Shown here: piece after piece, positions 3-40,306 of the stretch
Numbering within the stretch: the stretch's first letter is position 1
Layout of the letters: the number at the start of each line of letters is the position of its first letter
From: Planctomycetota bacterium
GTDB lineage: Bacteria; Planctomycetota; Planctomycetia; JALXBF01
Assembly: GCA_026991575.1 (NCBI GenBank)
Contig: JALXBF010000151.1
Coordinates: 1-42,165 of the forward strand
Length of the DNA: 42,165 bases
Direction of reading: 5' to 3'
The notes under the pieces: model-generated
Told to the model about the DNA's origin: nothing
What the model saw: only the letters and a program-made list of their open reading frames with translations
Database searches by the model: none
Made by a program: the position numbers and the translations under genes

Positions 3-341
3 CTGCCTGGGCTAGAGGGGTACGAGTGTCTGTGCGTGGTGGCGTTGTTGCCTGGTCGTGATCCGCTGTATGTGCTGGTTTCTCCGGCGGCGCGTGGTAG
101 GGGTCGTACACCGCAGTGGTGGGTGAACCGCTACAGGAAGCGTTGGGTGGCGGAGCAGTTGAATCGCGGTCTGAAGCAGCTGTTCGATTTGGAGAAGTTT
201 CTGGTCCGCACGTGGGTGGCGATTGAGCGGCTGATCTGGCTGTGTGCGATGGTGTTGTTCTGGATCAGTTGGTTCGCGGCCGAGCACAAGGCGGTCGTGA
301 TGTCGGAGCTGCGAAAGAAGGGGTACCTGAGCGAGGCCTGA
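3..341 (+). CDS. IS4-type transposase, C-terminal fragment cut by window edge
   Basis: The frame is open from the first bases of the window to the stop at 339-341, so this is the C-terminal end of a longer protein whose start lies outside. It contains YRKRWVAEQLNRGLK, which fits the Y-x2-R-x3-E-x6-K (YREK) signature around the third catalytic residue (Glu) of IS4-family DDE transposases. A hydrophobic helix rich in Trp, Leu and Ile follows, as is usual after that motif. The enzyme would cut and join the ends of its own insertion sequence. The DDE aspartates are outside the window, so activity cannot be judged. I could not define the terminal inverted repeat because the other end is missing. 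Confidence 0.75.
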   Translation: MPGLEGYECLCVVALLPGRDPLYVLVSPAARGRGRTPQWWVNRYRKRWVAEQLNRGLKQLFDLEKFLVRTWVAIERLIWLCAMVLFWISWFAAEHKAVVMSELRKKGYLSEA

Positions 342-704
342 GTGCCTGTTCTACGCGTTCTGCCAGTCGATTCTGCGTGAGGATCGACCGTCGGCGGGGT
401 ACATGCCAGGGGGGCCCTGAGGGGGCGCCCGCGGAAACTCACCTCTGTCTGCTCACGGACCAGGTGCACACTGGCCGTAGGACGTGGTCGCGACGCACCG
501 TGTGCACGCCAGGGGGCTATCGCGCGCCGGTGTCGCCCACGGTCCGAGAGTGTCCCCTTCGGCACCGGAGCCTACGGAGCGCACCCCGCCTACACGCTGG
601 CATCCCGATGAGCGCTGTCTCGCGCGTACTCGCTCCCCGCGTCGCCGGGTCCAAGCTCGCTCCTGCCGCCTCCGTCAGCGACAAGCTCCAGCAGGGAAAA
701 ACGC
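342..704. other. Gene-free stretch after the transposase
   Basis: No reading frame here looks like protein: the open frames on both strands are rich in Arg, Pro, Ser and Thr without recognisable motifs. There is a short inverted repeat (GTCGAT at 366-371 with ATCGAC at 383-388). The right end of the insertion sequence probably lies in this stretch but cannot be fixed from one side. Confidence 0.5.
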
Positions 705-735
705 TTGACAGTCTCTCTCTCTCTTTCTCTAGACT
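705..735 (+). promoter_or_regulatory. Sigma70-type promoter of the MauE-Trx/DUF1573 cluster
   Basis: A perfect -35 TTGACA (705-710) is followed after 19 bp by TAGACT (730-735) as the -10; TCTAGA at 728-733 (17-bp spacing) is a weaker alternative. The ATG at 792 lies about 50 bp beyond the expected start of transcription. The spacer consists mostly of a TC repeat. The TANACT form of the -10 recurs in two other likely promoters in this window. Confidence 0.55.
712..724 (+). repeat. (TC)6 dinucleotide tract in promoter spacer
   Basis: Six TC units plus one T lie between the -35 and -10 boxes of the promoter at 705-735. Gain or loss of one unit would change the box spacing by 2 bp. Whether the tract varies in length in the population cannot be seen from one sequence. 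Confidence 0.8.
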
Positions 736-791
736 ATGCGCAAACGCTGGCTCTGTCGTTCAGAAGCGCAAGCGGGCGCGGAGGACCCCAC

Positions 792-1772
792 ATGTGGCGT
801 GAGGGGCGTTTGAGCCGGCAGGCTAGCCGTAATTGGGTACGAGCGCGGCTGCCCGGTGTGCTAGTCGGAGTCGTCCTCGCAACGGCCGCAGCCGGCAAGC
901 TCGGAGCCCTTGTCCGCGAGCCCGTGGCTGCCTGGGCATTCGTCTTGGGACCGGTGGGCTACATCGCTTTATGCGCGTGGGAGGGCTTCCTGGGAACCCA
1001 GCTAGTGCTTCATCCCACTCGCTATGCCGTCGCAGCGGCTGTCGCCACTTTCGGTCTCTTTGTTGGATACCACATATGGGTTCGCGCCGGCGGTGGCGCA
1101 GCGTGCGGCTGTTTTGGCATATTGGAGGTCAGCGACGACTGGGCTCTCGCGGTCGCCGTGCTCAGCCTAGGTGCTTCGTGCGCGGCCTGGATTGGCCTCA
1201 GCCCGCATGCTAGCTACCGTCAACAACGCCTCTATTGGCCGTTGGCCATCGGCGCTGGCATTGGTTGCGCGCTGCTACTTGCGGCTAGCGTTGTCGTAGC
1301 TCAGCAGGGTGCGACAGACGGCATCCGCGTTGGCAAGAGAATCATCTGGGTCGAACCCCAGCAGTGGCTCGGTCGCCCCTTTCCGCTAAGGAGGTTCGTG
1401 ACGAGCTGGCGTCTAGAGGAGAAGGACTACGTCGCCGCGGTGATCCGCGAGGGGTGTTCGCGCTGCGACCAATTCTTGGAGCACCTAAACTCCCTACGCT
1501 GGTCCGGTAGTCCCCGGTTGGTTGTGCTGGTGGCCGACGCCAGAGATAGCTCGCCGGGCCGCATCGACTTACCAGGACCGGTATACGTCTGGAACTTGGA
1601 TTCCCGTTGGCAGTGGAGCATACCAACGCCTTCGGTGGTTCTGATTCGCGATGGCCTCGTGGTGAAGGTAGGTGATGAAAACCTGCTTCTGCAGCTTGCG
1701 CGCTGGTTTGGCATTCGTAACAGGGCAGCGGAGCCACGGGGCAGCGCTGCCGCGGTCGTCGAGGCACGGTGA
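792..1772 (+). CDS. MauE/DoxX-type membrane protein fused to a thioredoxin-like CxxC domain
   Basis: A 326-residue predicted disulfide-handling membrane protein. Residues 20-170 hold about four to five hydrophobic segments; the first has the MauE/DoxX-like pattern TAAAGKLGAL and a later loop carries CGCFG (Cys105, Cys107), typical of MauE, which works with MauD in making methylamine dehydrogenase. Residues 185-305 look thioredoxin-like: a redoxin-like entry (WLGRPFPL), an active-site type GCSRC (Cys222, Cys225) and, about 55 residues later, IPTPSVVLIRDG, which matches the cis-proline strand. MauE and MauD functions thus appear joined in one chain. Start chosen at ATG 792, with GGAGG at 780-784; the open frame extends upstream to 705 but that part overlaps the promoter. 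It heads a four-gene cluster that includes a 12-cysteine secreted protein, a plausible substrate. Direction (oxidation or reduction) is unknown. Confidence 0.75.
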   Translation: MWREGRLSRQASRNWVRARLPGVLVGVVLATAAAGKLGALVREPVAAWAFVLGPVGYIALCAWEGFLGTQLVLHPTRYAVAAAVATFGLFVGYHIWVRAGGGAACGCFGILEVSDDWALAVAVLSLGASCAAWIGLSPHASYRQQRLYWPLAIGAGIGCALLLAASVVVAQQGATDGIRVGKRIIWVEPQQWLGRPFPLRRFVTSWRLEEKDYVAAVIREGCSRCDQFLEHLNSLRWSGSPRLVVLVADARDSSPGRIDLPGPVYVWNLDSRWQWSIPTPSVVLIRDGLVVKVGDENLLLQLARWFGIRNRAAEPRGSAAAVVEAR

Positions 1773-1811
1773 CGTGGCGCGCAACACGCCACCAGTTCCT
1801 GGAGGCAGCAG

Positions 1812-2822
1812 ATGCGCGCGTGGCTGGTGATTGCTAACGCGGCCGCCTTTGTTACACTCACCATCGGCTGCGCTCCGCGACGGGACGCGGTGGTCGTTGC
1901 AGAAACCGGACCGGTTTTCGTTAACATAGATTCCCCGAAACCGATCCGCCACACGTTCCGAGTTAAGAATGACAGCGATCACGCCGTAGCAGTGGTTAGG
2001 CTACGGACCTCTTGCAATTGCGCCCAGGCGCGCTTGACGACACACCGCCTGCCACCTGACAGCGCGACCGATCTAACCTTGTCGTACATACCCGATGGAG
2101 CATGGGGTGTGGACTCCGTCCACGCGGACGTGTTCTTCAGCGACGGAACCGTTACGCGCTATGTCTTGCGCGTGGCCTGGTTCCCCCGCCTGTACTTGTC
2201 GCCGCGACCGGTTCAGCTTTCGGTACCGCTTGGCCAACCAAAGTGGACATCGATCCGCTGCCAGCTGTTTGCACCGTCACGGCAGGCTCTTCCCGTGTAT
2301 GAGTCGCTTAACTGCACTGATGGTTTGACCTGCGAGCTAACCTCCCAGGAGGAGCAGCAGATTGGACCGCGCGTGTGGGAGAGGGCTTACGTATTTCGTG
2401 TGACCGCCGAGCCCACGGCTTCGCCAGGCCGCTATCGCGGCAGGGTACTGATGACGTTTCGTACTAACGATGGGCAAGTCCTCAATGCCTCGGCAGATGT
2501 CCACTGGACAGTGCTCCCGGTCCTGCGCTGCCGTCCACCCGTGGCAAGCCTCGGCCTAGAGGGTACCGCCACGGTCCAAGTGGTTGCGGAGGACGGCGCC
2601 GCGTTCGAAATCGTTGATGTGGCTCTTGATCCCCCCGAAGCTGCTCGGTGGCTGGCAGCAGACATCAACCCAGATGGCCGGTCCATTCGGCTGACCGCCA
2701 CTACCGCCTCCGAGCCTCAAGACACGCCCATGACCCGGCGGTGCACGGTGCGTATTCGGACAACGCATCGCAAACAGGCTGAGGTAACCTTGACGGTGCT
2801 GTCTTACGTGGTGCCCCGCTAA
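1812..2822 (+). CDS. DUF1573-type exported lipoprotein
   Basis: A 336-residue envelope protein. The N-terminus is a hydrophobic signal ending in LTIGC, with Cys20 a likely lipidated residue, though the lipobox is not perfect. Residues 35-115 show the DUF1573 pattern: the strand HTFRVKNDSD, then VVRLRTSCNCA (the usual sCGCt motif with Asn in place of Gly), then a proline-rich turn and a strand ending in LSYIPDG. Further beta-rich segments follow to about residue 330, probably Ig-like folds (ASH-type). DUF1573 proteins are common in Planctomycetes and Bacteroidetes and have no proven biochemical role. GGAGG at 1801-1805 precedes the ATG by 6 bp. It sits 39 bp after the MauE-thioredoxin gene and 14 bp before the Cys-rich gene, so co-transcription is likely. 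Confidence 0.75.
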   Translation: MRAWLVIANAAAFVTLTIGCAPRRDAVVVAETGPVFVNIDSPKPIRHTFRVKNDSDHAVAVVRLRTSCNCAQARLTTHRLPPDSATDLTLSYIPDGAWGVDSVHADVFFSDGTVTRYVLRVAWFPRLYLSPRPVQLSVPLGQPKWTSIRCQLFAPSRQALPVYESLNCTDGLTCELTSQEEQQIGPRVWERAYVFRVTAEPTASPGRYRGRVLMTFRTNDGQVLNASADVHWTVLPVLRCRPPVASLGLEGTATVQVVAEDGAAFEIVDVALDPPEAARWLAADINPDGRSIRLTATTASEPQDTPMTRRCTVRIRTTHRKQAEVTLTVLSYVVPR

Positions 2823-2836
2823 CCTGGAGGTATGCC

Positions 2837-3295
2837 ATGCGCACGAGTACTTCCGTGACCACATTCGCCACGGTAGCGGTCTTGATCGCAGGTCTAGCTC
2901 CTGGCCTAGTTTTGGGGGTGGGTGACGACCAATTGTGCTACCCGGGACCACCCGTTGTAGGGGACTGCGTCACGGAGGAAGGCGACGACGAGTTTTGCCA
3001 TCTACATTTCCTCTTGGTCAGCGACACCGAGTGCGACCGGTCGCGACCCGTTCGTATGTGCACGTACAAATGGACGTGCCGGTGGGACTCAAAACGGAAG
3101 CTCTGGAGGAAAACCGAAGCCACCCTCAAAGTCTACGCTCAATGCAAGGATCCCCAAGACGTTGACGAGCCTCAAGGTTGCTGGCATTGCCCCGCGTCCC
3201 TGATTTGTAGAGTGGATCGTTTTTACCAGGATCCGTACTGCACGCGTCAGACTTCGCTGTACCGATGGTTCCGAATGCGCGAGGCCTGCTACTGA
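2837..3295 (+). CDS. Small secreted protein with 12 cysteines, unknown family
   Basis: I do not recognise the family. The 152-residue product has a signal peptide (residues 1 to about 27, hydrophobic core TVAVLIAGLAPGLVLG). The mature part holds 12 cysteines at 34, 44, 54, 66, 75, 81, 103, 115, 118, 124, 135 and 151, and none lies in the signal, so all could pair as six disulfides. It is also rich in Trp, Tyr and charged residues, including GCWHC at 114-118. GGAGG (2826-2830) lies 6 bp before the ATG. It is encoded two genes after a MauE-thioredoxin fusion. Methylamine dehydrogenase small subunit is likewise a small six-disulfide protein matured by MauD/MauE; I see no sequence similarity to it, so this is only an analogy. 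Confidence 0.7.
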   Translation: MRTSTSVTTFATVAVLIAGLAPGLVLGVGDDQLCYPGPPVVGDCVTEEGDDEFCHLHFLLVSDTECDRSRPVRMCTYKWTCRWDSKRKLWRKTEATLKVYAQCKDPQDVDEPQGCWHCPASLICRVDRFYQDPYCTRQTSLYRWFRMREACY

Positions 3296-3403
3296 CGCAG
3301 GGCTCGGGCCGCCCTGCATACCGCATCCTTGCCTACTCGCCGAACGCAGCGGGCGAATGGGTCAGCGGTGAAAGGCGCAGCACATCCCTTCTGGAGGTTG
3401 GAA

Positions 3404-4807
3404 ATGCTCGGGCGAATTGCAGTCGCCGCATGTATCGCCGCACTGGGCGCTTCTGGCGGGGCCGGACTGGACCAGTCTGGGCCAGAAGCGCCACAGACAG
3501 GAGCGTTGGGCAGGGAGGAAGTGCGTGCTCTGATGGAAGCTGTGCGTGCGAATGCTGAGTCGGTCACGTCGTACTACATCCGCTATGAGAACCGTGCTTA
3601 CGCCGTGGAAGGAGAGCACGATCTCGGGCAAGCACCAGCTGAAGAGAATCTCGAATACGTAGAAACGTTCGAATGGTGGCGGTCAGACCGTCTGTGGTGC
3701 TTGCGGCACGTTCATCGCACGGTTCGTACAAGACCGTTCCGGATCGTGGATAAGGAACGTGTGAGGGATGAGGGAGAGGATCGGGAATCAGAGTTACTGG
3801 TTGAAACGGGCACAGGGGGCCCGCCGCACACAACGATCAGTGAGTGTATCGGGTACATTGGTGGAGAACTGTTCTGGTGGAGCCGACAAGGCGGTCGTGG
3901 AAACCGGATTCTACAGGGGGATATGTGGTTCACGTCAAAGAGCGACGCATGGAAATTCATCCCGTCGGGCGGAGATACTCCGGTCGTGCTCTTGCCAGGA
4001 GGAAGCCAGCCGAGCGGTCCGTACGCAGCGGTGGAGCACGCCCTCCAGGAAGGAACCGCGTTGTGGCGCCGGGGTGTCGAGCTGCTAGGCCACGAATGCG
4101 TTGTCGTTGAGGGTCCATGGCGGGAAGTTGCAGGGCAAGTGGAAGCTGGAATCGGTAACGATCAGCGCCAAACGGACAACGATGGCGCAAGCCCGCCCGA
4201 TGTCGAGATGCGCGGGTCGTGCCGCGTCTATCTCGACGTATGTTGCCCCGGACTCATTCGCGGCGCCGACGTCGTGCTGTCGGTCACCGACGAAACTGGA
4301 AACTCCGTACTCTTCGAGTCCTTTGTGCGGACAGCAGAGGCACGCAAGGTCGACGGACGGGCGTGGGTTGCTTGGGAGCTCCGGACCTGGCAAAGATTGC
4401 AAAGCACGGACGAGTCGCAGGACGCTGGTCGCGCTACTGTGATCATCGGCCGCGTGAAGAGTTGCGAGTTCAGAGAGCTACGAGACGACGAGCCGGGTAT
4501 CGAGCTTCCTGCACGCACACGTGTTTATTCGTACGACCGAGAGGATGCCGTGTACGAGCAGCTACGGCCCATCCGCCTGACCACTACAAACTTCGCCTCC
4601 TGGCACAAGCGTGTGCTGAACAGGCTCGGACCGCCCGAGCTCGTGCTGGGTGGTGTCCCTCCGGGAGCAGCATACCGCGACAAGACCGGGGCGCTCGACG
4701 TGCCGGGCTTCGTGCTCGTGGCCCTGCTTCTGGCAGCTCCAGCTGCACTGTTGCTCCTGGTGCACTGGTGGCGCCGCCGTAGCGACACGGCACCTGGAGA
4801 GAATTGA
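3404..4807 (+). CDS. Exported protein with C-terminal membrane anchor (LolA-like fold possible)
   Basis: A 467-residue protein with an N-terminal signal (MLGRIAVAACIAALGASGG) and one C-terminal membrane segment (about residues 434-456) followed by a basic tail WWRRR. The body would sit outside the cytoplasm. Residues 36-60 (EEVRALMEAVRANAESV, then a Tyr-rich strand) followed by repeated strands, the pattern VELLGHECVVVEG and then CRVYLDVC resemble LolA/outer-membrane-lipoprotein-carrier-like beta sheets, but this is a weak resemblance and no function is assigned. The start at 3404 is preferred over upstream in-frame codons because of GGAGG at 3392-3396 and the signal peptide. It is the last gene of the four-gene cluster, after a 108-bp gap. 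Confidence 0.6.
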   Translation: MLGRIAVAACIAALGASGGAGLDQSGPEAPQTGALGREEVRALMEAVRANAESVTSYYIRYENRAYAVEGEHDLGQAPAEENLEYVETFEWWRSDRLWCLRHVHRTVRTRPFRIVDKERVRDEGEDRESELLVETGTGGPPHTTISECIGYIGGELFWWSRQGGRGNRILQGDMWFTSKSDAWKFIPSGGDTPVVLLPGGSQPSGPYAAVEHALQEGTALWRRGVELLGHECVVVEGPWREVAGQVEAGIGNDQRQTDNDGASPPDVEMRGSCRVYLDVCCPGLIRGADVVLSVTDETGNSVLFESFVRTAEARKVDGRAWVAWELRTWQRLQSTDESQDAGRATVIIGRVKSCEFRELRDDEPGIELPARTRVYSYDREDAVYEQLRPIRLTTTNFASWHKRVLNRLGPPELVLGGVPPGAAYRDKTGALDVPGFVLVALLLAAPAALLLLVHWWRRRSDTAPGEN

Positions 4808-5736
4808 ACACCGGCACTGCACCCGGGCGCTGGCGGATAGGTCCGTGTCGCGAGACAGATGGTTCGCCTCCAACCGCGGAACAAAACAGGCCAAATAGTG
4901 CGCCGAAGGTCCTCTGTGGCCGGTCACAGTGCAGGCGTACGTCTGCAATCGGCATGGTCATCAATACGCGCATTGGCCAGGAGGAGCGGGGCTCAGCCGA
5001 AGGGGGAGCCTGTGGCAAAGCCGGGACGGCCGCTGACCTGGGTTCATGATGTTGTTACACCAGTTCGTACTCTATCGGGCAGACCGATGCTCATCGGCGG
5101 GCTCGACATAGCAGAGGCTTCGGCAATTGACCGCGACCTGTCCGAGGAACTCCCGCGGGCCCACCCGCTGCACAGGCGAGGGCTGCAGCGTGCGCCTCGC
5201 TCCCCGGATGTCCGGTCCCGCAGCAGGTGCGGCCAGTATGTCTACCGGCTACAACCAAGGAGCTGCGTCACCGGCTCATCGACAGTCGGCACGGGACTAA
5301 CACTGGCAATACAGCGATATTCGGAGGCACCGCCGGTTGCATCACACGGTGCGCGTCGTATGATTGCGACGCACTGTCCGGCTAGAGCACACCGGCCCGT
5401 CGCAGCCCCTACCGGGCTTTGGCGCGGGGGCCTTGCCAGCTCATGGTCGGCGCATGCAACCACGGGCTGCGAGTCACAATCCGCGGCACCGTCGCTTCGG
5501 CAAGCGGAGCACGGAACGCATGAGTGGTTCCAGCCGTCCCGGAGCGCAACGCTTGGCCTGCTCGCAACGACAGCATGCATCTGGAAGCACCTGGATACGG
5601 CGGAGCCAGTCGAGGATGCCGGCATCGTTCAGATCCCCGGTGTGAGCAGCGCGATACGGATAGGGTGCAGACTTTCGGATTGCCTCAGCCGCAACTGGCT
5701 GACACCGAGCTGTCCATAACGCGGTGAGCACTTGCC
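4808..5736. other. About 930 bp without a convincing gene
   Basis: Open frames exist on both strands (for example 4859-5719 on the plus strand), but their translations are Arg/Ser/Pro-rich, lack hydrophobic cores or family motifs, and have no good ribosome binding site. I saw no tRNA-like cloverleaf and no strong terminator. It may hold a decayed gene or regulatory RNA; nothing in the sequence decides this. Confidence 0.45.
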
Positions 5737-33306: not shown

Positions 33307-33708
33307 GTGATACGCACCTGGCTGCGTTGTGCACTGGTTGCTCTGTTGGCCTTCGCGCCGGTCCCCTGCAGTGGGGAGTGCAGCTGCTGTGCGCAGCGCG
33401 ATCCGGGAGCCGGCCTTCCCGAACTGTCCGGCACGTCTGGTTGTTGCCGCCCCGACTATGGCGTCCAGCTCCAGCGGCAGCATTGCGAATGCGACAACTT
33501 CAGGGTGCGTGACCGTGCCCGCGTTGAGCGGAATGACACGCTGACCATTTGCCACCAGCTCTCTGCGATGACGGCTGTGTGGTCTTGCTCTACGCCTGGC
33601 GCGTGCACCGAAGATGGCTGCGGCCAAGCCAGGCATGATGGCCCGAACCAACTCGCGCAGCTCGGTCACACTGAGATCCGCTTGGTCATCTCCTCGCTAC
33701 TGCTCTAA
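33307..33708 (+). CDS. Cys-rich secreted protein, probable metal-binding, first gene of efflux locus
   Basis: I do not recognise the family. The 133-residue product has a signal peptide (MIRTWLRCALVALLAFAPVP) and 13 cysteines at 8, 21, 25, 27, 28, 46, 47, 60, 62, 82, 94, 100 and 105, arranged in clusters ECSCC, GCC and CEC that suit binding of soft metals such as Cu, Ag, Zn or Cd. Several His residues (59, 83, 110, 121) add to this. GTG start with AGAGG 8 bp upstream. It lies directly behind the TTGACA/TAAGAT promoter and 104 bp before the CusB gene, so a role as metal sponge, sensor or chaperone for the pump is reasonable, but inferred. Confidence 0.65.
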   Translation: MIRTWLRCALVALLAFAPVPCSGECSCCAQRDPGAGLPELSGTSGCCRPDYGVQLQRQHCECDNFRVRDRARVERNDTLTICHQLSAMTAVWSCSTPGACTEDGCGQARHDGPNQLAQLGHTEIRLVISSLLL

Positions 33709-33812: not shown

Positions 33813-36296
33813 ATGCCGTGGGCAAAGCGACTTGTGTCATCCTCAGCCATCTGGATCATCCTCGTTCTGGTTGCCCTCTATAGCGGCTACAAGTTGGGCA
33901 GCGGCAGGCAAGCTACGTCACCGGAGCCATCGGCAACCCCTGCTGCGGCGACGAAAAAAGAGGGGGCCGAAGGGCAGGGCAGCCAGATCTGGTCGTGCTC
34001 GATGCATCCCAATGTGCAGCTGCCGGGTCCGGGCAAGTGTCCCATCTGCGGCATGGACCTGATCCCGGTTACAACCGAAGCCCATCCATGGCGGATCACG
34101 TTTTCGGTGGAGCAGGCTGCTCTTGCCGGCATCGAGGTCAGCCCTGCGGTGCGTATGCCCGTTTACCACACGGTGTTTATGACTGGCAAGATTGTGCCTG
34201 ACGAGCGCAAGATCGCCTACGTGACCGCCTGGATTCCAGGTCGACTGGACCGACTGTACGTTGACTTCACTGGTACGCAGGTTCGAAAGGGCGATCACCT
34301 GGTTTACATCTACAGCCCGGAGTTGGTCCAGGCACAGCAGCAGTATCTCTCGGCGCTGCGGTCGCTGCGGGCGAACATTCCCGGGGCACGGGAGACGTAC
34401 GAAGCGGTGCGCGATCAGCTGTTGCTGCTCGGCTTGACAGAGCAACAGATCGAAGAACTTGAGAAAACCGGCAAGCCGAGTGACCATGTGACGATCTATT
34501 CGCCGATTGGTGGCGTCGTGCTTGAGAAACTGGCCAATGAAGGCGAGTACGTACAGGAAGGCTCCAAGATCTACACGATTGCCGATCTGTCGACCGTATG
34601 GGTCATCTTGGACGCCTACGAGAGCGACCTACCGTGGGTACACCTGTGGCAGACGGTTGAGTTCACCACGGAGGCTTTTCCGGGGGAGGTTTTTGAAGGG
34701 CAAGTGGCATTTGTTGACCCGGTGCTGACCGAGCGGACGCGCACCGTACGGGTTCGGTTGAACGTGCCCAATGAGTCGGGGCGCCTGCGGCCGGGGATGT
34801 TCGTGCGTGCGTTGCTGAAGGTTCGGTTGGACAAGCGTGGCTGGGCCGTTCGCCCTGACCTGTCCGGCAAGTGGATGTGTCCGATGCATCCGGAGGTGGT
34901 CGAGGCGAAGCCAGGGCGGTGCTCGATCTGTGACATGGAGCTGGTGCGTGCCGAGGAACTCGGCTACCGACGGCCCAAGGAAATCGAGGATCCGTTGGTC
35001 ATCCCCGCCTCGGCCGTGCTCTGGACCGGTCGCCGTGCTGTGGTCTACGTGCAGGTGGCCAGCAAACCGAGTCCGGTGTTCGAGGGCCGTGAGGTCATCC
35101 TGGGACCGCAGGCCGGGGACTATTGGGTTGTGCTCTACGGGCTGAAAGAAGGGGATCTCGTGGTGACCGAGGGGAACTTCAAGATCGACGCGAGCCTGCA
35201 AATCAAGGCAAAGCGGAGCATGATGACTCCTGAGGGAGGGACGGCACCAGCGGGTCACGCACACGGCCACGGTGGCGGTGAGCAGGCCGGCAGCAGCACC
35301 GCACCGGCCGGCGAGCACCCGTCGATCGAGCCGGCCCAGGTACCTGACCGGTTTCGCCTGGCTCTGACGCCACTGTACCAGCAGTACCTGCAGGCAGCTC
35401 GTGCGCTGGCCGACGATCGGCTCGGTGCCGCCTTCAGTGCGCTGCGCAATCTGGAACGGGCCATGCAGCGCCTGCCGCTGGCGGAGATGCCTGAACAGGT
35501 ACGTGACGCGTGGGGGCCGATCCAGGATAAGCTTTACCCCGCTCTGGTCGAAGCCCTGGACGCCAAGACCCTGAACCATGTCCGCGTGCCGTTCCGGCAG
35601 ATCAGCGCGGCCATGGTGCAGGTGGTCAAGTCCTTCGGCCACGCTCTTTCGAGCAAGCTGTACCAGTTCCACTGCCCCATGGTCGAGGGCGGCGGCGCAG
35701 TGTGGCTTCAAACAGACCGAGAGGTGCGCAACCCGTACTTCGGCGCACGCATGCTCCGTTGCGGCGAACTGCGTGCCACGTACGAACCGATCGTGCCGCT
35801 GATCGTCTCCGACGAGTTCCGCCAGCAGCTTTCGACCGTGTATACCACATACCTGAAACTGACCGACGCCATGCGGGCTGAGGACCTGAAGACGGCCCAA
35901 CGTCTTGCGCAACAGCTTGCAACTGCGGTCCGCCAGATCGATGCGCAGGCGCTGAACGAACCGGCGGCCATGCGCTGGAGCGTGGTTGTGCAGAAGGTTG
36001 TCGACGCTGCACAAGAAGGCAGCAAAGCCAAGGACATCCGCTCGTTTCGCAGCGCCTTCCGCGAAATCTCGGCAGCCATGGTCGAGCTGGCAACACGCTT
36101 CGGACACGCCCTGGATCAGCCGCTCTACGTCGACCATTGCCCGATGGTCTTCCGGGGCAAAGGGGCTTTCTGGCTGCAAACCGAACGAAAGATCTTCAAC
36201 CCGTATGCCCCCAAGACCATGGACACCTGTGGCACGATCACGCAGGTTGTCCCGCCAACACGTACTGGTAGGCAACCGGACAACGGCCAGAAGTAG
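33813..36296 (+). CDS. CusB-type RND efflux adaptor with two HMBD and two DUF3347 domains
   Basis: An 827-residue periplasmic adaptor, about twice the length of E. coli CusB. After an N-terminal membrane anchor (10-27) comes a heavy-metal-binding domain (60-86, CSMHPNVQLPGPGKCPICGM). The barrel-sandwich and beta-barrel parts of CusB follow (95-345, VTAWIPGRLDRLYVDFTG). A second HMBD sits at 354-378 (CPMHPEVVEAKPGRCSICDM), then the membrane-proximal domain (395-465). A His/Gly linker (GHAHGHGGG, 481-489) leads to two tandem DUF3347 repeats (518-652 and 668-806), each with CPM, WLQ, NPY and C-G marks. The adaptor would deliver metal to CusA and help gate it. ATG 33813 is chosen over GTG 33741 because the anchor then begins properly and CGGAG lies upstream. 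No outer-membrane CusC is present. Confidence 0.88.
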   Translation: MPWAKRLVSSSAIWIILVLVALYSGYKLGSGRQATSPEPSATPAAATKKEGAEGQGSQIWSCSMHPNVQLPGPGKCPICGMDLIPVTTEAHPWRITFSVEQAALAGIEVSPAVRMPVYHTVFMTGKIVPDERKIAYVTAWIPGRLDRLYVDFTGTQVRKGDHLVYIYSPELVQAQQQYLSALRSLRANIPGARETYEAVRDQLLLLGLTEQQIEELEKTGKPSDHVTIYSPIGGVVLEKLANEGEYVQEGSKIYTIADLSTVWVILDAYESDLPWVHLWQTVEFTTEAFPGEVFEGQVAFVDPVLTERTRTVRVRLNVPNESGRLRPGMFVRALLKVRLDKRGWAVRPDLSGKWMCPMHPEVVEAKPGRCSICDMELVRAEELGYRRPKEIEDPLVIPASAVLWTGRRAVVYVQVASKPSPVFEGREVILGPQAGDYWVVLYGLKEGDLVVTEGNFKIDASLQIKAKRSMMTPEGGTAPAGHAHGHGGGEQAGSSTAPAGEHPSIEPAQVPDRFRLALTPLYQQYLQAARALADDRLGAAFSALRNLERAMQRLPLAEMPEQVRDAWGPIQDKLYPALVEALDAKTLNHVRVPFRQISAAMVQVVKSFGHALSSKLYQFHCPMVEGGGAVWLQTDREVRNPYFGARMLRCGELRATYEPIVPLIVSDEFRQQLSTVYTTYLKLTDAMRAEDLKTAQRLAQQLATAVRQIDAQALNEPAAMRWSVVVQKVVDAAQEGSKAKDIRSFRSAFREISAAMVELATRFGHALDQPLYVDHCPMVFRGKGAFWLQTERKIFNPYAPKTMDTCGTITQVVPPTRTGRQPDNGQK

Positions 36297-36349
36297 CGCC
36301 CAGCGATCACGACCGCAGACGACCTTATGCAACCGATCGGACAAGAGCC

Positions 36350-39300
36350 ATGGACCGCGACGCCGGCTTCCTTGCCAAGCTCATACGTGCTTGCCTTGAA
36401 AACAAACTGATTGTCTGGATCCTTGTGCTGGTTTTCCTGGGCTGGGGCATCATCGTCAGTCCATTCGACTGGCAGATCGAGTGGCTGCCGCGCTACCCCG
36501 TCCCCGTAGATGCAATCCCGGACATCGGAGAGAACCAGCAGATCGTGTTCACCGAGTGGCCCGGGCGGTCGCCTCAAGACGTCGAGGACCAGGTAACGTA
36601 CCCCCTCACCGTCTCATTGCTTGGCGTCCCGGGGGTGAAGACAATCCGCAGCCTGTCGATGTTCGGGTATTCGTTCATTTACATCATCTTCGACGAGGAC
36701 GTTGAGTTTTACTGGTCGCGTAGCCGGATTCTGGAGAAGCTGAACAGCCTGCCACCCGGCACGTTGCCAGAAGACGCCCAGCCAGCCCTGGGACCGGACG
36801 CCACCGGGTTGGGTCAGGTCTACTGGTACACGCTGGAGGGGCGTGATCCGGATGGCCGGCCGGTTGGCGGCTGGGATCTCGATGAACTGCGCACCATCCA
36901 GGACTGGTACGTCCGCTACGCGCTGATGTCAGCCGAAGGGGTCTCCGAGGTCGCTTCTGTGGGCGGATTTGTCCGCGAGTACCAGGTTGACGTGGACCCG
37001 GCCGCACTCTGGGGTCACGGAGTCACGATCAACGATGTCTTCGAGGCAGTCCGCCGCTCGAACATCGACGTCGGTGCGGCGAACATCGAGCTGAACAGCG
37101 TCGAGTATCTCGTGCGGAGCCTGGGATTCATTCGAAGGCTCGAGGATCTGAAGAACACCGTCGTACGCGTCGTCGATGGGGTACCGCTGTTGATCAAGGA
37201 CGTGGCGCACGTGACGTTGGGCCCGGCGCTCCGCCGCGGAGCATTGGACAAGGACGGGGCCGAGGCAGTTGGCGGATGCGTCGTCGTTCGCTATGGCTAT
37301 AACCCCCTTCAGGCCATCAACAACGTGAAGGAAAAGATCGCGGAGATTGCGCCGGGGCTCCCAGAAAAGGTCTGGATCGACTACAGCAAAGTTACCCGCG
37401 AGGAGGTGGAGAAGTTCGCCGCCGAGCATGGCTTCGTGGCTTATGTTGGCGGTAGGCTGAACCATGAAAGCTGGCTCGAATGGATGCGCCGCGTCGGTCG
37501 GGAAAACTGGCCAGAGTGGGCCACGATCAGCAAGGTCACGATCGTCCCGTTCTACGACCGGACCAAGCTGATCTACGAAACCCTCGGCACGCTCAACCGG
37601 GCCCTCGTGCAAGAGATTCTGGTCACCAGCATCGTGATCCTCGTAATGGTCGGCCATCTGCGCAGCTCAATCCTCATCAGCCTTACACTGCCGCTGGCCG
37701 TCCTGATGTGCTTCATATCGATGAAGATCTTCGGCGTCGACGCCAACATCGTGGCCTTGTCCGGTATTGCGATCGCCATCGGCACCATGGTCGACATGGG
37801 AATCGTGCTGTCGGAGAACATCCTCAACTACCTGGAGCGGCGCAAGGAAGGCGAATCGAGCCTGGACGCCGTGTACAAGGCCACCACCGAAGTGGCCAGC
37901 GCGGTGCTCACCGCGGTGGCCACAACCGTGATCAGCTTCCTGCCCGTCTTCACGATGATCGGCCCCGAAGGAAAGCTGTTTCGGCCACTGGCGTTTACCA
38001 AGACGTTTGCTCTCATCGCGTCCGTAATCGTCGCCGTGATGATCCTGCCGGCTGCCGCCCATATGCTGTTCCCCGTCACCGTGCGCGGCAAGCTGCGTCT
38101 GTTCCTGTACCTGCTCTTCGCAACGCTAGCCTTTCCTGCGTGGAAGTTCCTCGGCTGGTGGGCGGCAGCCATTGTGCTGGTAGTCGCGGCGGCACGTTGT
38201 GCCGAGCAGCTGGTGCCCGGCTTCGCCCGCAAGCTTGCCCCGATCGTGGCCAACGGTGCCGCCGTGCTCTTCGTCGCCGTGCTGCTGACCCAAGACTGGC
38301 TACCGCTTGGCCCTGAGCTGGGACTAGCGCGTAACCTGCTCTTTGTCATAGGCGTCCTCGGAGCGCTGCTGCTGTCGTTCACGGTCTTCCGGTTGTACCT
38401 GTACGAGCCGATGCTGCGGTGGGCACTGCGCCACAAGCTCATCTTCCTGAGCATCCCGACGGCAATCGCTCTGGCCGGTTTCTCCGTGTGGCTTGGCTTT
38501 GAGACCATGTTCGGCTTCATACCCAGGCTGCTGGCTGCGGCCGGAGGCAAAGCGGAGTGGATCACAGAGAATACCGTCTGGTCCACCCTGGCCCAGGCGT
38601 TCCCGGGACTGGGCCGCGAATTCATGCCATCGCTGGACGAAGGATCTTTCCTTTACATGCCCACCACCATGCCTCACGCTTCGATCGGCGAGGCGATGGA
38701 CGCGCTGCGGAAAGAAGACCTCGCCATCCGCTCCATTCCCGAAATCGAAACCGTGGTCGGGAAGATCGGTCGAGTCGAGAGTGCGCTCGATCCGGCACCA
38801 ATCGGCATGGTTGAAACGATCATCCAGTATCGCCCCGAGTACATCGTGGACAAGAACGGCCGGCTGAAGCTATTCAAGTACGATGAGGAAAAGGGGGAGT
38901 TCGTCCGGGACGAGAACGGCCAGCTCATCGAAGACCCCAACGGACGTCCCTATCGGCAATGGCGGCCGCATATCAAGTCCCCCCAGGACATCTGGCAGGA
39001 AATTGTCAAGGTAGCAGAAATCCCCGGCTCGACCTCAGCCCCCCCGCTCCAGCCCATTGAAACCCGACTCGTCATGCTCCAGACCGGCATGCGAGCAGCC
39101 ATGGGCGTGAAGGTACTCGGACCAGATCTGGAATCGATCGAAAAAGCTGGCATCGCCATCGAACGGTTCTTGAAAGAGGTTCCGTCCGTTGAGCCAGCCA
39201 CGGTCGTGGCCGACCGCGTGATTGGCAAGCCGTACATCGAAATCAAATTGGACCGCGGCGCTATCGCCCGTTACGGGCTCACGGTCGAAGAGGTCCAACG

Positions 39301-40306
39301 CATCATTGAGGTCGCCATCGGAGGACGGCGCCTGACAATGACCGTCGAGGGACGGGAACGCTACCCGGTGCGGGTGCGCTATGTGCGTGAACTGCGCGAC
39401 AACCCGGAAGCACTAAAGAGGATCCTGGTCCCGACCAAAGAGGGCACCCAGGTGCCTCTGGGACTGCTGGCCGACATACAGTTCGTGCGCGGTCCGCAGG
39501 TCATCAAGAGCGAAGACACCTTCCTGGTTAGCTACGTCACGTTCGGCAAGAAGCCGGGCTACGCTGAGGTGGACGTCATCGAGGAATGTCGCCGCTATCT
39601 GGAGCAGAAGCGCGCGAGCGGCGAGTTCGTGCTTCCACCCGGTGTCTCATACCGGTTCGCCGGCACGTACGAGAACCAGATTCGCGCCCAGAAGACACTG
39701 GCCGTCGTGCTGCCCCTGGCACTGCTGCTCATCTTCCTGATCCTCTACCTCCAATTCCGCTCCGTCATCACCAGCTCACTCGTGTTCAGCGGAATCATCG
39801 TCGCCTGGTCTGGCGGGTTCCTGATGATCTGGCTCTACGGTCAGGAGTGGTTCATGGATTTCGAACTTTGGGGCAAGAACTTCCGTGAGCTGTTCCAGGT
39901 CCATCCGATCAACCTGAGCGTGGCCATCTGGGTGGGCTTCCTGGCCCTGTTCGGAATAGCCACCGATGACGGCGTCGTGATCGCAACGTATCTCGACCAG
40001 AGTTTCGCCGAAGCCAAGATCGATACGGTCGAGGCGGCACGGGAAGCCACGGTGAAAGCCGGCCTACGCCGTGTTCGCCCCTGCTTGATGACGACAGCAA
40101 CCACGGTCCTTGCGCTTCTGCCCGTGTTGACCTCGACCGGCCGAGGCTCGGACATCATGGTGCCCATGGCGATTCCAAGCTTTGGCGGGATGGTGATCGA
40201 AGTAATGACGATGTTGGTGGTGCCGGTTCTCTACTGCGCGATCAAAGAGTTCAAGATCCGGCACGGCATCGCAGATCGTCTGTTTGCCGAAGGTGCCCGC
40301 CGGTAG
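36350..40306 (+). CDS. cusA: CusA-type heavy-metal RND efflux pump, enlarged
   Basis: A 1318-residue proton-driven RND transporter; E. coli CusA has about 1047. Family marks: TM1 (IVWILVLVFLGWGIIV), VDAIPDIGENQQIV, PGRSPQDVEDQVTYPLT, TM4 GTMVDMGIVLSENIL (Asp482, the proton-relay aspartate), then LYMPTTMPHASIGEA, DPAPIGMVETIIQ and FLALFGIATDDGVV. Extra pieces: about 120 residues (574-690) with four hydrophobic segments between TM6 and the VYRPLL-type strand (here RLYLYEPMLRWALRHK); about 50 residues in the periplasmic pore region before VPFYDRTKL; and about 50 residues after ETIIQYRPEY. Likely exports Cu(I)/Ag(I) or other soft metals from periplasm or cytoplasm; substrate is inferred. It follows the adaptor after 53 bp. 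Confidence 0.9.
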   Translation: MDRDAGFLAKLIRACLENKLIVWILVLVFLGWGIIVSPFDWQIEWLPRYPVPVDAIPDIGENQQIVFTEWPGRSPQDVEDQVTYPLTVSLLGVPGVKTIRSLSMFGYSFIYIIFDEDVEFYWSRSRILEKLNSLPPGTLPEDAQPALGPDATGLGQVYWYTLEGRDPDGRPVGGWDLDELRTIQDWYVRYALMSAEGVSEVASVGGFVREYQVDVDPAALWGHGVTINDVFEAVRRSNIDVGAANIELNSVEYLVRSLGFIRRLEDLKNTVVRVVDGVPLLIKDVAHVTLGPALRRGALDKDGAEAVGGCVVVRYGYNPLQAINNVKEKIAEIAPGLPEKVWIDYSKVTREEVEKFAAEHGFVAYVGGRLNHESWLEWMRRVGRENWPEWATISKVTIVPFYDRTKLIYETLGTLNRALVQEILVTSIVILVMVGHLRSSILISLTLPLAVLMCFISMKIFGVDANIVALSGIAIAIGTMVDMGIVLSENILNYLERRKEGESSLDAVYKATTEVASAVLTAVATTVISFLPVFTMIGPEGKLFRPLAFTKTFALIASVIVAVMILPAAAHMLFPVTVRGKLRLFLYLLFATLAFPAWKFLGWWAAAIVLVVAAARCAEQLVPGFARKLAPIVANGAAVLFVAVLLTQDWLPLGPELGLARNLLFVIGVLGALLLSFTVFRLYLYEPMLRWALRHKLIFLSIPTAIALAGFSVWLGFETMFGFIPRLLAAAGGKAEWITENTVWSTLAQAFPGLGREFMPSLDEGSFLYMPTTMPHASIGEAMDALRKEDLAIRSIPEIETVVGKIGRVESALDPAPIGMVETIIQYRPEYIVDKNGRLKLFKYDEEKGEFVRDENGQLIEDPNGRPYRQWRPHIKSPQDIWQEIVKVAEIPGSTSAPPLQPIETRLVMLQTGMRAAMGVKVLGPDLESIEKAGIAIERFLKEVPSVEPATVVADRVIGKPYIEIKLDRGAIARYGLTVEEVQRIIEVAIGGRRLTMTVEGRERYPVRVRYVRELRDNPEALKRILVPTKEGTQVPLGLLADIQFVRGPQVIKSEDTFLVSYVTFGKKPGYAEVDVIEECRRYLEQKRASGEFVLPPGVSYRFAGTYENQIRAQKTLAVVLPLALLLIFLILYLQFRSVITSSLVFSGIIVAWSGGFLMIWLYGQEWFMDFELWGKNFRELFQVHPINLSVAIWVGFLALFGIATDDGVVIATYLDQSFAEAKIDTVEAAREATVKAGLRRVRPCLMTTATTVLALLPVLTSTGRGSDIMVPMAIPSFGGMVIEVMTMLVVPVLYCAIKEFKIRHGIADRLFAEGARR

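Follow-up and report, generated by a model that had tools for sequence, protein, structure and literature searches.

The five-gene set near the start of the 42,165-nucleotide stretch of planctomycete DNA analysed here (the window) belongs to a family of eight or more related cassettes within a single planctomycete genome (4.96 Mb, 97.8% complete, known from one assembly). In most of these cassettes a small cysteine-rich protein is probably exported, often with its disulfides formed by a membrane protein in which a MauE domain is fused to a thioredoxin-like domain, and the expression of six of them may be switched by slippage of a repeat. Gene context across planctomycetes lends strong support to a link between such fusions and cysteine-rich secreted proteins.

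The window cassette (Table 1) had been presented in a preliminary description as a possible oxidative-folding unit of four genes, and the individual genes were borne out. The first has the MauE marks fused to a CxxC domain, with a PF07291 match and the CGCFG and CSRC motifs; the DUF1573 lipoprotein scores 36.6 bits and carries the lipobox LTIGC; the small secreted protein contains exactly 12 cysteines, all of them in the mature part following the signal peptide; and the exported partner ends in a transmembrane segment with a basic tail. All four lie on one strand, with GGAGG sites preceding each start. The limits of the unit had to be redrawn on both sides, since position 705, given as its beginning, opens the -35 box and the fusion gene starts only at 792, and since the unit also takes in a GT-C glycosyltransferase gene located 930 bp past the fourth gene and lacking a GGAGG site, whose counterpart is the fifth gene of a second cassette on contig C104. 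The PMT_2 match of this enzyme, 25 bits, falls slightly short of the 26.1-bit cut-off. The interval preceding it (4808-5736, about 930 bp) is without a convincing gene; its C104 counterpart measures 300 bp. Pfam and PDB yielded no relative of the anchored protein, whose predicted structure is poor (pLDDT 43); a LolA-like strand pattern is an impression only. Models of defence systems gave no match. Elsewhere in the window (33307-33708) there is a secreted 11-Cys ORF, overlapped by an ORF predicted on the opposite strand and located upstream of two genes (33813-40306) resembling a membrane-fusion protein and an RND-type efflux pump.

Table 1. Features of the window cassette and its upstream region
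Feature	Position	Strand	Remarks
IS4-type transposase tail (3-341) and about 350 bp	95-694	+	Pfam DDE_Tnp_1; blastn
Proposed switchable promoter	705-735	+	TTGACA 705-710; spacer mostly TC repeats (712-730); TAGACT 730-735
MauE-thioredoxin fusion, 326 aa	792-1772	+	CGCFG residues 105-109; CSRC 222-225
DUF1573 lipoprotein, 336 aa	1812-2822	+	conserved CxC; aligned with C104 copy
Secreted 12-Cys protein, 152 aa, proposed cargo	2837-3295	+	no Pfam, NCBIfam or PADLOC match
Exported protein, 467 aa	3404-4807	+	TM at the C terminus, then basic tail; matches no known family
GT-C glycosyltransferase, PMT_2-like, 608 aa	5737-7563	+	fifth gene of C104 cassette

The fusion is a borderline member of the MauE family when judged by score, with 24 bits in hmmscan and 27.1 bits in the genome search against a PF07291 cut-off of 27; the profile is nonetheless matched at E <= 0.01 by all 24 fusions compared. 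Among these, which share about 20% identity, the only invariant residues besides the start methionine are the CG-C-G of the MauE motif (CGCxG) and the two CxxC cysteines. The C-terminal domain resembles thioredoxin domains of PDI by profile (E 1e-5), and its fold is similar to that of thiol-disulfide oxidoreductases (Z about 9-10), while the similarity of the helical part to NACHO/TMEM35A (Z 9.7) is within the chance range for helical bundles. Neither VKOR (PF07884) nor DsbB (PF02600) was matched anywhere in the genome, with positive-control genomes giving matches, and the fusions themselves matched neither profile. Reducing proteins such as ResA and CcmG are found among the structural matches of the thioredoxin domain, and it is conceivable that the fusion, like these or DsbC, reduces or isomerises disulfides instead of forming them. 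The presence of ResA-, TlpA- and CcmG-like chains among the best matches speaks for this; nevertheless, the fold is common to all such domains, the client-type genes are rich in even cysteine numbers, and the genome search for VKOR and DsbB brought up no other oxidase, which together make a reductase or isomerase quite unlikely.

With oxidation as the preferred reading, a scheme for the cassette can be proposed. The cysteine-rich protein would be exported through Sec, and its disulfides would be formed by the membrane-bound fusion, the thioredoxin CxxC acting on the client and the MauE CGC re-oxidising the thioredoxin domain, from which electrons would pass to the membrane pool. Holding, presenting or chaperoning the product could be the task of the lipoprotein (DUF1573) and of the partner with the C-terminal anchor, glycosylation may be carried out by the PMT-like enzyme, and slippage of a dinucleotide repeat between the -35 and -10 boxes would switch expression. 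The product itself may be a surface-layer protein, an adhesin, a toxin-like peptide or a signal. We infer in which direction electrons flow, that the cysteine-rich protein is the client, what the DUF1573, anchored and glycosyltransferase proteins do, and that expression is phase-variable. The earlier suggestion that the fusion may mature the 12-Cys protein is favoured by gene context, by the invariant redox cysteines, by cysteine parity and by the lack of a detected VKOR or DsbB.

Several sister cassettes occur in the same genome. The C104 set is a diverged second five-gene set in the order of the window, its cysteine-rich protein being 37% identical to the 12-Cys protein in the local match and its glycosyltransferase 28% identical (E 6e-46), whereas the likeness of the anchored proteins is limited to architecture and a DVCCPG motif. 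That the order is kept in two copies whose cysteine-rich and glycosyltransferase genes share 28-37% identity indicates more than chance. The cassettes on C118 and C28 each combine a fusion with a small cysteine-rich protein (10 Cys), an anchored protein and a PMT gene, and their cysteine-rich proteins are related to each other and unrelated to that of the window. Upstream of the C118 MauE gene (L012 8575), its N-terminal part appears in another frame, pointing to a frameshift or an assembly error. The fifth fusion, on C63, is accompanied by a DUF1573 gene and by four tandem pairs of a small cysteine-rich protein (6 Cys) and an anchored protein, located upstream of the fusion (L060 7365-13167); these cysteine-rich proteins, too, are unrelated to that of the window. 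All five fusions are inside cassettes with a cysteine-rich gene. No fusion was seen adjoining the C6 set, which comprises cysteine-rich, DUF1573, anchored and PMT genes, or two further sets on C33 (C33a and C33b); a cysteine-rich gene was looked for in the C33a set and not found. Since C6 and C33b have a cysteine-rich gene without a nearby fusion, service in trans is possible.

Homologues of the 12-Cys protein itself are confined to this genome in the searches made: in 149 relatives only weak matches with internal stops were found beyond it, and nothing beyond it in 392 genomes of the phylum or, with two short patterns, in the GTDB 220 contigs. The only detected homologue, that of C104, adjoins a fusion. 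The word "dedicated" in the preliminary description is less well supported, as the cysteine-rich genes of C6 and C33 have no fusion nearby.

The association of fusion and cargo extends to other planctomycetes. The fusion profile matches 48 of the 298 genomes of the class, and a scripted search was made for a small exported cysteine-rich ORF on the same strand, at most 1.5 kb downstream of the fusion. The class set comprised 44 loci, 40 in addition to the four cassettes first recognised in this genome; such an ORF was present in 21, within 184 bp in 18 of them. A second set, of 61 named loci, nearly all from Planctomycetota, was obtained from a contig scan with a narrow MauE alignment; 51 were kept once duplicates and loci short of downstream sequence had been taken out, and 13 of these had the ORF. 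Control DNA, made up of 20 random regions of the same genomes and the rest of the window and so not matched for operons, contained two such ORFs in 410 kb, giving Poisson P values of 2e-37 (class set) and 4e-22 (second set). By these criteria about half of the class loci and about three quarters of the phylum loci have no cysteine-rich neighbour. In addition, an anchored gene with a C-terminal transmembrane segment lies within 4 kb in 31/44 class loci, compared with 1/20 control places. These distributions bear on whether the fusion might be a general periplasmic thiol oxidase serving the whole cell, its position in cassettes being incidental or regulatory. Such a role would agree with the undetected VKOR and DsbB and with the C6 and C33 cysteine-rich genes that lack a nearby fusion; it is hard to reconcile with five fusions in one genome, each in a cassette with a cysteine-rich gene, with the strong association in other genera, or with the presence of the fusion in so few genomes of the class, and we consider it unlikely.

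The composition of the cargos is also informative. An even number of cysteines is found in 42 of 54 cysteine-rich proteins (P 3e-5), the remaining 12 being odd, and in 23/30 when one protein per sequence cluster is counted (P 0.003). This bias favours complete pairing into disulfides. The proteins could instead bind metal through free thiols kept reduced by the fusion, as their high cysteine content might suggest for exported proteins; however, only 27/57 control exported proteins have an even count, export itself argues against this function, and no metal-protein family was matched, so that metal binding appears very unlikely. Indeed, Pfam and NCBIfam scans of 36 cargo proteins gave no match at all, be it to PF02975, to YTV repeats or to any other family; these 36 are therefore an undescribed set of secreted proteins. 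A pattern of the LSxxELxxxxG type, considered as a possible RiPP-like leader, follows the signal in 10/54 cargos and in 0/261 other exported proteins, although in two of the ten the fit falls within the signal region and is probably due to chance; it is absent from the 12-Cys protein of the window. LSxxE(L/M)xxxxG-like motifs, which resemble double-glycine leaders, follow the signal peptide of unrelated cysteine-rich proteins at L053, L054, L058, L059, L071, L086, L132, L138 and L146.

The promoter proposed for the window cassette has a 19-bp spacer, and a sigma-70 scan at 16-18 bp spacing accordingly found no promoter, as would be expected. Tracts of at least six TC/GA or TG/CA units, grouped by place, are only ten in the whole genome, and six of them follow a TTGAC box before cassettes: those of the window, C104, C28 and C6 and the two on C33 (window 705-735; L004 6629; L013 7467; L194 5934, minus; L197 5281 and 13547, minus). 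Similarly, the pattern TTGAC(WS)7 has exactly five matches genome-wide, 5/5 in front of cassettes, and its reversed control none. The repeat unit may be TC, AG, TG or AC, and this difference between cassettes argues against simple copying. The segment of about 600 bp directly upstream of the window cassette, which includes the IS4-type transposase tail, is 90% identical by blastn to one upstream of the C6 cassette (L194 6547-5945), the match breaking off 10 bp short of the -35 box. A TAnnnT box follows the repeat at spacings of 19 (window), 15 (C28), 15 (C6) and 27 (C33b); none of that form was found after the repeat at C104 and C33a, and the C118 promoter is repeat-free with a spacing of 17.

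When a wider repeat pattern was applied to 40 other genomes, true dinucleotide repeats were recovered in family f8 only, the other matches being of mixed sequence and similar in number to the reversed control. Three sites of the f8 genome G045 have a spacing of 11, and a spacing of 19 also occurs there. Sites of this family are located upstream of a MauE-thioredoxin/cysteine-rich pair (L077), a DUF1573-like/MauE pair (L078), a pilin-like gene (L209) and anchored-type genes (L213, L219); others reach contig ends. Two G045 contigs, C19 and C24 (L210, L211), end in near-identical repeat promoters, as if the loci were repeated or variable. The repeats after the TTGAC box are apparently promoter spacers, and their arrangement suggests phase variation of six cassettes. 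We know of no earlier description of phase variation in planctomycetes. In Haemophilus, a dinucleotide repeat between the -35 and -10 boxes governs phase variation of the hifA/hifB promoters (PMC3899988). The cassettes apparently share this placement of a repeat, ahead of genes whose products are exported or located at the surface, and differ in using TC, AG, TG and AC repeats at several cassettes.

Related systems have been described for the enzyme and its clients. MauE and MauD of Paracoccus mature the small subunit of methylamine dehydrogenase, an exported protein with 12 cysteines. The window cassette likewise sets a MauE membrane domain and a thioredoxin-like partner beside an exported 12-Cys protein; unlike the mau system, both domains are fused in one chain, the cargo has no PF02975 or other Pfam match and belongs to varying families, and no other mau gene was recognised among the cassette genes. 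The proposed oxidase role would place the fusion alongside the VKOR-thioredoxin fusion of Synechococcus (PDB 3kp9, 4nv5), in which a four-helix membrane thiol oxidase is joined to a periplasmic thioredoxin domain, although the bundle is here of the MauE/DoxX type with CGC and no VKOR profile match, and structural similarity is weak. The nearest report is that of MauE-containing candidate RiPP clusters of Streptomyces found by decRiPPter, where mauE, once with mauD, is beside a predicted precursor with at least eight cysteines (PMC7794033). A mauE homologue beside a protein with at least eight cysteines is also seen at the window, C104, C118, C28 and other loci, the C63 cargos having six; in contrast to those actinobacterial predictions, the cassettes have the fusion, a Sec signal, DUF1573, an anchored protein, a PMT-like enzyme and a repeat promoter. 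The YTV-domain cell-wall proteins are cysteine-rich exported proteins of planctomycetes (PMC8567305), from which the cassette cargos differ in being small and without a Pfam family match.

The cassettes point to candidates for the enzyme, the clients and the switch by which planctomycetes might make disulfide-rich envelope proteins, in a genome that yielded neither DsbB nor VKOR. More tentatively, MauE-thioredoxin fusions may in this lineage replace DsbB and VKOR for diverse disulfide-rich exports, and slippage-switched cassettes might then provide a phase-variable surface or secretome.
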